Position numbers and translations under genes: made by a program
Shown: positions 29,047 through 30,531 of the stretch, piece by piece
Layout: each line of letters opens with the position of its first letter
Position numbering within the stretch: position 1 is the stretch's first letter
Assembly (NCBI RefSeq): GCF_900101335.1
Contig: NZ_FNKA01000002.1
Coordinates: 620,001-684,000 of the forward strand
Reading direction: 5' to 3'
DNA length: 64,000 nucleotides
Source of the DNA: Quadrisphaera sp. DSM 44207
Lineage (GTDB): Bacteria > Actinomycetota > Actinomycetes > Actinomycetales > Quadrisphaeraceae
The notes under the pieces: model-generated
Told to the model about the DNA's origin: nothing
Seen by the model: the letters and a program-made list of their open reading frames with translations, nothing else
Databases searched by the model: none

Positions 29047-29397
29047 CGGCCCACTGTACGGACGGCGCGCATGCTGTTACGTCACGTAGGTGGCGCGGTA
29101 CAGCGAGTAGTCCGGACGTCGCGGAACCGTTCGCTTCGGTTGATCCGCCGGGCCAGGTTCGCTGGAACGATGCGGATCAGCCACGCCGCCGACTGTTGGG
29201 ATCGGGCCCCGGCACATCTCACTGATTCGTCATTGATATTTTTACCTACGCTGTGGTAACAGCGATGGGCTCGATCGACCATCGACCTGTGCCTCTTATG
29301 AGGTGACGGCTCTGCATCCACGAACCGCTTGACGCCGCGAGATCCCGGTGGAAGGGTCCACTCACGGCAACGTGGCCGTTCGACGAGGGGAATCCCG
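29047..29397. other. Gene-free, AT-richer spacer at the left edge of an islet
   Basis: About 350 bases without a convincing gene. Composition is visibly less GC-rich than the surroundings, including a gatattttta run near 29235. A small inverted repeat ttacc...ggtaa (29241-29258) might be an operator, but this is weak. No transposase, tRNA or direct-repeat boundary was seen. Confidence 0.5.
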
Positions 29398-30258
29398 GTG
29401 AAGGACTTCATCCGTAAGGGTGTTCTAGCAACGTCCTTGATGGCGATGGTGGCATCCGGCGTGGCCTTGGCCCCCGGGGCCGCCGCTGAGCCCGACGACA
29501 CAACGCTCAAGCAGATCGAGAAGGCGACAGCGGTCGCGGAGAAGAAGTTTCCGATCAAGTCGGTCGACACCGATGTCACGGTCGAGACGGATCACGCAGA
29601 GGCGTCCGCTCGCATCACAGCCCCTGCGGGCGCAGCGGTCAGTCTCGCCGCCGGTGACCCGGCTGACTCTGTGGTCGTGGAGCATCCCGACGGGGCGCAG
29701 GTGATCAGTCTCCTGCGCTCCGGCGAGTCACGCGCCACGTTCGACCTGGATCTTCCTCCCGGTACGACGCTGTCCAGGTCGGGGCAGGGCTTCGAGGTGG
29801 TCGTGGACGAGGACATCGTGGTGGGCCAGGTGCAAGCACCATGGGCCATCGATGCCAACGGAAGAGCGTTGACGACCAGTTTCGCCTACGACGGTGACAA
29901 GCTGGTGCAGTCCGTGGACACCGCGGGGGCCGCCTTCCCGATCACCGTCGACCCGCGAATTTCCATCGGCATCTATATCTACGTGCGGTACTCTCGTGCT
30001 GAGGTGCGCACCCAGGCCGGCCAAAACACAGTCACATTCGTAGGATCGCTGGCAGCGGCAACATGCGGCCGACTGCTCAACTGGTTCCTCGCAGGAGCGT
30101 GCGCAGGGGCCATCGGGGCGGTCGGGAACTCGCTGAACAACGCCTTCTCTGCCGCGAAGGCGGAGAACAAGTGCATGGAGATCAGGTTCAGCCATCCGAT
30201 TCCTGTCGTCGCAGGATGGCGGCGTTACAGCACGAGCCCGACCTGCCACAGCTCCTGA
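29398..30258 (+). CDS. Secreted protein of unknown function with four Cys
   Basis: A 286-residue exported protein not assignable to a characterised family. A signal peptide is clear: basic VKDFIRKG, hydrophobic VLATSLMAMVASGVALA, cleavage after PGAAA at residue 30. Residues 31-60 are charged and helical, and 61-190 look beta-rich. At 146-186, QAPWAIDANGR ... ITVDP resembles a module in many actinobacterial secreted proteins (recalled, unverified). The C-terminal 100 residues contain a hydrophobic Gly/Ala-rich segment (228-246) and Cys at 223, 235, 259 and 283, enough for two disulfides. The GTG has GAGGGG 7 bases upstream. Codon and base use differ from neighbours, suggesting transfer. The next gene, 14 bases away, is a small membrane protein. 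Confidence 0.75.
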   Translation: MKDFIRKGVLATSLMAMVASGVALAPGAAAEPDDTTLKQIEKATAVAEKKFPIKSVDTDVTVETDHAEASARITAPAGAAVSLAAGDPADSVVVEHPDGAQVISLLRSGESRATFDLDLPPGTTLSRSGQGFEVVVDEDIVVGQVQAPWAIDANGRALTTSFAYDGDKLVQSVDTAGAAFPITVDPRISIGIYIYVRYSRAEVRTQAGQNTVTFVGSLAAATCGRLLNWFLAGACAGAIGAVGNSLNNAFSAAKAENKCMEIRFSHPIPVVAGWRRYSTSPTCHSS

Positions 30259-30272
30259 CGGGAAGTGAGACC

Positions 30273-30482
30273 ATGTTGAGCAGCTACGGGCGCTCGCCCT
30301 GGAAGGCCGACGTCACTGGGACCCTTGCGGCACTGATCGTCCTGATCATCATACGTCCACCCCTGGTCACAGCTGTCGTCGCCATGGTGGGGGTGATCGT
30401 GATGCTGGGTCTGATCCATGCGTGGAGCTGGTGGAGGCAGCACGAACAGACGCGGGCCGAACCAGTCGACTTCCACAGTTGA
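30273..30482 (+). CDS. Small two-helix membrane protein
   Basis: A 69-residue protein with two predicted membrane helices (about 15-28, TGTLAALIVLIIIR, and 31-50, LVTAVVAMVGVIVMLGLIHA) joined by a tight Pro-Pro turn. A Trp-rich interfacial segment (WSWWRQ) and a short charged tail follow. The ATG at 30273 has GGAAGTGAG upstream and lies 14 bases after the secreted-protein stop, so both are on one transcript ended by the hairpin at 30489. No homologue is recognised. Size and pairing would suit an accessory or immunity-type partner, but that is conjecture. Confidence 0.65.
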   Translation: MLSSYGRSPWKADVTGTLAALIVLIIIRPPLVTAVVAMVGVIVMLGLIHAWSWWRQHEQTRAEPVDFHS

Positions 30483-30488
30483 CCACCT

Positions 30489-30531
30489 GCCGTGGGGGCC
30501 CTTGCCGTACTGGTGCGAGGGCCCCCTCGGC
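30489..30531. terminator. Hairpin terminator closing the secreted-protein operon
   Basis: 14-base arms (gccgtgggggccct / agggccccctcggc) with one T-T mismatch and a 15-base loop, 7 bases after the small membrane protein stop. It faces the convergent phosphotransferase gene. Confidence 0.7.

Follow-up and report, generated by a model that had tools for sequence, protein, structure and literature searches.

A probable closticin-like polymorphic pro-bacteriocin gene and its proposed immunity gene in Quadrisphaera sp. DSM 44207

What is encoded by the segment of low guanine plus cytosine (GC) content within a 64,000-nucleotide stretch of Quadrisphaera sp. DSM 44207 (contig NZ_FNKA01000002.1, positions 620,001 to 684,000; hereafter the window), and do its two genes form one system? 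Gene A encodes a 286-residue protein with an N-terminal signal peptide and four cysteines (Cys 223, 235, 259 and 283), and gene B, starting exactly 14 nucleotides after it, a 69-residue protein with two hydrophobic segments and a basic tail. Both products had been described in these terms, as a secreted four-Cys protein and a two-helix membrane protein, in an earlier sequence-only reading that likened the pair to a bacteriocin with its immunity protein, and the descriptions hold. Based on a comparison of related loci, we propose that the two genes are probably a closticin-like polymorphic pro-bacteriocin system whose toxin domain is distinct and probably directed at the membrane. From their sequences, gene A is very probably a secreted toxin and gene B its immunity protein; it is likewise probable that the pair belongs to a closticin-type polymorphic pro-bacteriocin family and acts in the manner set out below.

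A shared pro-domain with swappable C-terminal tails

Weak relatives of protein A (25–40% identity) occur in 16 of 99 related genomes and can be aligned with it up to the motif APWAxDAxGxxxPTxYxxxGxxLxQxVxxxxxxxPVxADP, after which the sequences diverge completely. Among 395 genomes of the class and 396 of the order, a profile of the middle domain of gene A (profile A1, whose alignment includes the window protein) identified members in at least 36 and at least 71 (18%), respectively, both counts being lower bounds as only part of the candidates was scored in these large scans. The fetched loci comprise 118 distinct family members after removal of duplicates, sporadically distributed among genomes. 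The Asp and Pro of the junction at which alignment ends show no variation in alignments of 18 and of 79 members, and this invariance is suggestive of a cleavage site. Closticin 574 itself is reportedly cut at Asp-Pro.

Grouping the tails of the 118 members, taken as the sequence after Asp-Pro, by clustering revealed at least six unrelated classes behind the one shared domain, several with toxin-type Pfam matches. This combination of a constant N-terminal part and unrelated C-terminal toxin domains is that of polymorphic toxins. The tails comprise 48 of the four-Cys type including that of the window protein (one, at locus L050, doubtful), 20 of the DUF2599 type, seven of the DUF4258 or HNH type, seven of the phospholipase type, three of the EndoU type and many small groups. 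Pfam matches were obtained to phospholipase A2 (PF09056, 1.3e-10), DUF4258 (2.9e-7), DUF2599 (2e-17) and EndoU (2.3e-5, at or just under the curated cut-off), and the AHH match of L008 is weak and at threshold level. A profile of the toxin domain (A2) run over 297 genomes added little beyond known loci, two of its matches being set aside as a frame artefact (L172) and a fragment (L171).

Kinship with a phage protein annotated as closticin is evident in the pro-domain. Protein gp64 of phage Min1, a member of the family, matches the 'putative closticin' of Paenibacillus phage BN12 (39.5%, E 7e-22), and profile A1 matches BN12 gp25 with 77 bits up to its Ala-Asp-Pro, after which follow an 82-residue tail and, 14 nucleotides further on, a transmembrane (TM) gene. 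The domain is common to all family members and homologous to this BN12 protein annotated as closticin. Closticin 574 is produced as a 309-residue preprotein with a 27-residue signal peptide and processed extracellularly to a C-terminal bacteriocin of 82 residues (PMC10888436); gene A consists of a signal peptide, a 155-residue domain and a 101-residue tail. In a closticin-like gene of Bacillus, the primer for the mature part encodes Pro-Asp-Trp-Ser right after the added start codon (PMC10888436), which fits a cut before Pro. Searches for named homologues returned none, and a sequence pattern derived from the published closticin-like primer gave no match.

Neither Pfam nor NCBIfam has a model for the shared domain or the four-Cys domain. 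Searches of Pfam, NCBIfam, PHROGs and PDB sequences with proteins A and B gave only sub-threshold, inconsistent matches, among which those near DUF4010, Imm17, plantacyclin and Bacteriocin_IIc were treated as chance, and single-protein scans of genome and viral contigs recovered no named close relatives. The broader family is apparently undescribed in the libraries and literature searched. The earlier statement that neither protein strongly resembles a known family stands as regards Pfam and NCBIfam models; it missed the closticin link of the pro-domain.

Partner genes, paired cysteines and orphan cassettes

Partner genes were assigned by a fixed automatic picker as small TM-containing open reading frames (ORFs) starting −35 to +100 nucleotides from the stop codon. 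Such an ORF lies behind 40 of 48 four-Cys members, 17 of 20 DUF2599 members and only one of 10 nuclease-type members; at random sites the rate is 5.7% (130 of 2,293). Fisher tests gave p 2e-5 for four-Cys versus nuclease type, 1e-4 for DUF2599 versus nuclease type and 6e-40 versus random sites. Nuclease-type members have soluble partners, namely DUF2283 proteins (1.7e-11) with DUF4258 tails and homologous proteins of ~180 residues with EndoU tails. Partner type thus follows toxin type as immunity predicts, with membrane partners for putative membrane toxins and cytosolic partners for putative intracellular ones, and a co-directional, directly downstream partner gene matched in type to the toxin is a further feature of polymorphic toxins. 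Against these counts, the possibility raised earlier that homologues of the secreted protein might regularly lack the small membrane gene is not borne out for the four-Cys class. DUF2599, a Pfam family without function (L014, L015, L105 and others), appears here as a toxin-type tail usually accompanied by a small membrane partner.

Cysteines of the four-Cys domain are gained or lost in pairs, which indicates disulfides: the paired columns are both occupied in 32 members, both empty in 11 and split in two (p 8e-9), and a second, optional pair is complete in six, absent in 39 and never split.

Orphan cassettes and polyimmunity arrays, also typical of polymorphic toxins, are found at L003 and at L033, L041 and L076, respectively; neither was seen at the window locus itself. 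At L003 the complete pair is followed by an orphan cassette comprising a four-Cys domain with the end of the pro-domain only and its own two-TM gene. In one genus, the toxin gene at L041 is followed by a run of three two-TM genes that are homologues (45–53% identity) of the cognate immunity genes, those in first position, at L036, L033 and L039. The L033 orphan shares 82% identity with the L039 immunity protein across 55 residues, and the L076 orphan matches the L101 immunity protein (57%). Variable tails, partners that track them, tandem non-cognate immunity genes and kinship with a phage protein annotated as closticin together support the earlier likening to a bacteriocin with its immunity protein, toxicity being predicted.

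At L170, too, the four-Cys domain is present, preceded by nothing but a signal peptide and adjoined by a two-TM gene, and at L173 a weakly matching version of it follows a peptidoglycan-binding domain (PG_binding_1, 8.6e-14). Complete pairs are present in phage Min1 and on Streptomyces plasmids. In Microbacterium phage Min1 (L143, 2572-3628), gp64 and gp65 are a complete four-Cys pro-toxin and a 61-residue two-helix partner, 7 nucleotides apart and close to the lysis genes, annotated only as hypothetical proteins. On a plasmid of Streptomyces sp. NBC_00829 (L160, 1724-4635), a 901-residue DNRLRE protein ends in the pro-domain and a four-Cys domain and is followed by a 58-residue two-helix ORF, an architecture that, by its predicted domains, links the gene A family to WapA-like surface proteins.

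Within the taxonomic family of the window, profile A1 members occur only in the window's own genome, which holds four copies. The second (L018, G000:C4:35236-35787) is another four-Cys pro-toxin, with a multi-helix ORF of ~90 residues ~500 nucleotides downstream. The third (L023, G000:C4:159459-159803) has a tail of the DUF4258 type, with a DUF2283 partner lying 10 nucleotides downstream, and is by its predicted domains a soluble toxin–immunity pair on the same pro-domain. The fourth (L081, G000:C2:261198-261647), of DUF2599 type, is probably a pseudogene because of an in-frame stop codon shortly past the Asp-Pro junction. At three further loci (L051, L052 and L053) the shared domain stands almost alone with a 4-residue tail and may function without a toxin.

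Proposed mode of action and its alternatives

We posit that gene A would be exported by Sec as a precursor composed of signal peptide, beta-rich pro-domain, Asp-Pro junction and a disulfide-bonded toxin domain of ~101 residues, and that a cut at or beside Asp185-Pro186 after export would free the C-terminal domain. The freed domain would target the cytoplasmic membrane of related Gram-positive competitors, where its Gly/Ala-rich helices would most likely insert and dissipate the membrane potential, and gene B, as a two-helix hairpin in the producer's membrane, would block the toxin there. Action at the membrane is fairly likely, and depolarisation is a reasonable guess as to its form. The membrane target is suggested mainly by the nature of the immunity protein and by the hydrophobic Gly/Ala-rich helices, the closest functional analogy being the contact-dependent growth inhibition (CDI) ionophores, whose immunity proteins are two-helix membrane hairpins (PMC11630599).

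In the structural model of full-length gene A (mean predicted local distance difference test score, pLDDT, 73.5) the pro-domain is beta-rich, and the toxin domain modelled alone (pLDDT 82.3) has four short helices between two beta hairpins. Searches with Foldseek and VIA-align gave no convincing fold match, either for the pro-domain, which bears a weak likeness to the N-terminal beta-sandwiches of glycoside hydrolases, or for the toxin domain (best Z 5.1); weak or absent fold matches were not taken as evidence of a new fold.

Several observations weigh against a membrane-active toxin guarded by its neighbour. The modelled helices are short, no known pore former matches the modelled domain convincingly, and a hydropathy scan of the gene A tail identified no clear TM segment. 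Eight of the 48 four-Cys members have no nearby TM gene according to the automatic picker, among them L018, directly behind which no small TM gene is present. Most phospholipase-type members lack an obvious immunity gene, so the shared domain is not confined to toxins that have a protecting partner. Outside close pairs, no mutual similarity is detectable among the immunity proteins, and the significance of toxin and immunity protein co-variation (Mantel test) depends on a few close pairs and is lost in the non-redundant set. Lastly, the closticin-574-like mature peptide of Bacillus altitudinis was inactive on two indicator strains (PMC10888436).

The compact alpha/beta disulfide fold of the model and the missing TM segment would suit a toxin domain that is an enzyme on the outer face of the envelope, acting on peptidoglycan precursors or lipids, with gene B still conferring immunity. 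Multi-TM partner genes also accompany two phospholipase-type relatives, so a TM partner is no proof of pore formation. We nevertheless consider an enzyme unlikely: across 45 members only the Asp-Pro junction and the cysteines are nearly invariant, leaving no conserved polar catalytic set, and no enzyme fold match stands out for the toxin domain. More doubtful still is the notion that gene A encodes an ordinary secreted protein, its N-terminal domain serving generally as a pro-peptide or in wall binding, and that gene B is an export or assembly partner. Such a role would accommodate the shared domain on phospholipase A2-like proteins, mostly without a TM neighbour, and its occurrence alone at L051-L053; yet the partner varies with the C-terminus and not with the shared domain, being soluble for nucleases and TM-containing for the four-Cys and DUF2599 types, and tandem arrays of other loci's partner genes would make no sense for an export factor. 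It is very improbable that the two genes have decayed or fallen silent and now lack a function, as the interrupted L081 and the sporadic distribution of the family might suggest, since neither window ORF is broken and the conserved junction, all four cysteines, the ribosome-binding site and the 14-nucleotide spacing are in place. An intracellular toxin–antitoxin system was rejected in view of the signal peptide of gene A and the membrane nature of gene B, and a holin or phage lysis function was set aside, no phage genes having been seen beside the pair between 26.5 and 33.5 kb, where none was specifically searched for.

So far, closticin 574 has been regarded as an unusual bacteriocin that stands on its own. 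If genes A and B are a toxin–immunity pair of a closticin-type family, its precursor domain would carry a large family of antibacterial toxins for which Pfam and NCBIfam have no model. We lean towards the view that the closticin-type pro-domain is a general Sec-exported platform for polymorphic toxins of Gram-positives and phages that needs no dedicated secretion machine and carries interchangeable nuclease, phospholipase and membrane-directed domains, including an undescribed disulfide-stabilised four-Cys class with two-helix immunity proteins. Hundreds of pairs of 'hypothetical proteins' could then be annotated at once, high-GC Gram-positives would possess a simple Sec-exported weapon system, and a new class of toxin domain would be added, disulfide-bonded, directed at the membrane and paired with very small two-helix immunity proteins. 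Such proteins could be a source of new protein antibiotics, with two genes sufficing per pair for testing.

The locus and its likeness to known systems

The features of the locus are listed in Table 1. The earlier description of a lower-GC segment was accurate, its actual bounds running from just after the mmuM start (~29073) to ~30545: genes A and B have 63.8% GC versus a mean of 77.1% (standard deviation 3.2) for equal-length windows across the 64 kb, and all such windows below 66% overlap the gene A/B segment, making it the lowest-GC stretch. Low GC and sporadic distribution suggest that the segment was transferred, as had been proposed, and a profile scan of 12 other genomes of the same taxonomic family found no members; an empty insertion site could not be demonstrated in relatives because flanking gene order is not conserved in them. 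Family-wide, GC is below that of the flanks in 91.5% of the 118 loci (p 4e-19), in keeping with mobile cassettes. Just 3' of gene B lies a very stable hairpin (−40.6 kcal/mol, z −3.4) that is plausible as the terminator claimed there, although no canonical T-run was found behind gene B.

Table 1. Features of the gene A/B locus (window positions).
Feature	Position	Strand	Description
Ribosome-binding site of gene A, probable	29385..29390	+	GAGGGG, seven bases 5' of the GTG; from sequence
Gene A	29398..30258	+	Putative secreted closticin-like pro-toxin, 286 residues; GTG start 29398-29400, stop ends 30258
Signal peptide of gene A, predicted	29398..29487	+	Residues 1-30, VKDFIRKGVLATSLMAMVASGVALAPGAAA; basic n-region, hydrophobic core, AxA end
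Pro-domain of gene A	29488..29952	+	Residues 31-185, ~155 residues, beta-rich; from alignments, structural model and BN12 profile match
Asp185-Pro186 junction, proposed processing site	29950..29955	+	Invariant in alignments; putative cleavage
Toxin domain of gene A, proposed	29953..30255	+	Residues 186-286, 101 residues; Cys 223, 235, 259, 283
Gene B	30273..30482	+	ATG start; 69-residue two-helix membrane protein, proposed immunity protein
GC-rich hairpin	30494..30526	+	Possible terminator without T-run; from folding

Among known systems, TspA/TsaI of Staphylococcus aureus resembles the pair in combining a secreted membrane-depolarising toxin with a membrane-protein neutraliser (PMC7456083); TspA differs in leaving the cell through type VII secretion, and the comparison is by description, with no sequence relation claimed. 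The CDI ionophore toxins (CdiA-CT/CdiI, Halvorsen-type) share a membrane-acting C-terminal toxin, two-helix hairpin immunity and highly diverged cognate pairs (PMC11630599). They are five-helix bundles on a CdiA carrier, whereas gene A has no CdiA-type carrier domain, its host no outer membrane, and its toxin domain is modelled as an alpha/beta disulfide protein of hairpin, four short helices and hairpin whose activity is predicted only.

With the Rhs/WapA polymorphic toxins the family shares a constant N-terminus, swappable toxins, a downstream immunity gene, orphan cassettes and polyimmunity loci (PMC3482391, PMC12704120), and its module is found at the end of a DNRLRE-type protein as well. 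Gene A differs in that its precursor is small and single-domain, with an ordinary signal peptide and neither Rhs repeats nor another known trafficking domain, and in that its shared domain is covered by neither Pfam nor NCBIfam. Closticin 574 of Clostridium tyrobutyricum ADRIAT 932, compared by layout only, likewise has a signal peptide, a long pro-region and a short C-terminal bacteriocin (PMC10888436); the host of gene A, by contrast, is a very high-GC actinobacterium. The tail of BN12 gp25 has no sequence match to the four-Cys domain of gene A, and among the family's tails only that of L045 matches the BN12 tail, weakly, but BN12 gp25 is like gene A in its pro-domain up to Ala-Asp-Pro and in the TM gene behind it.
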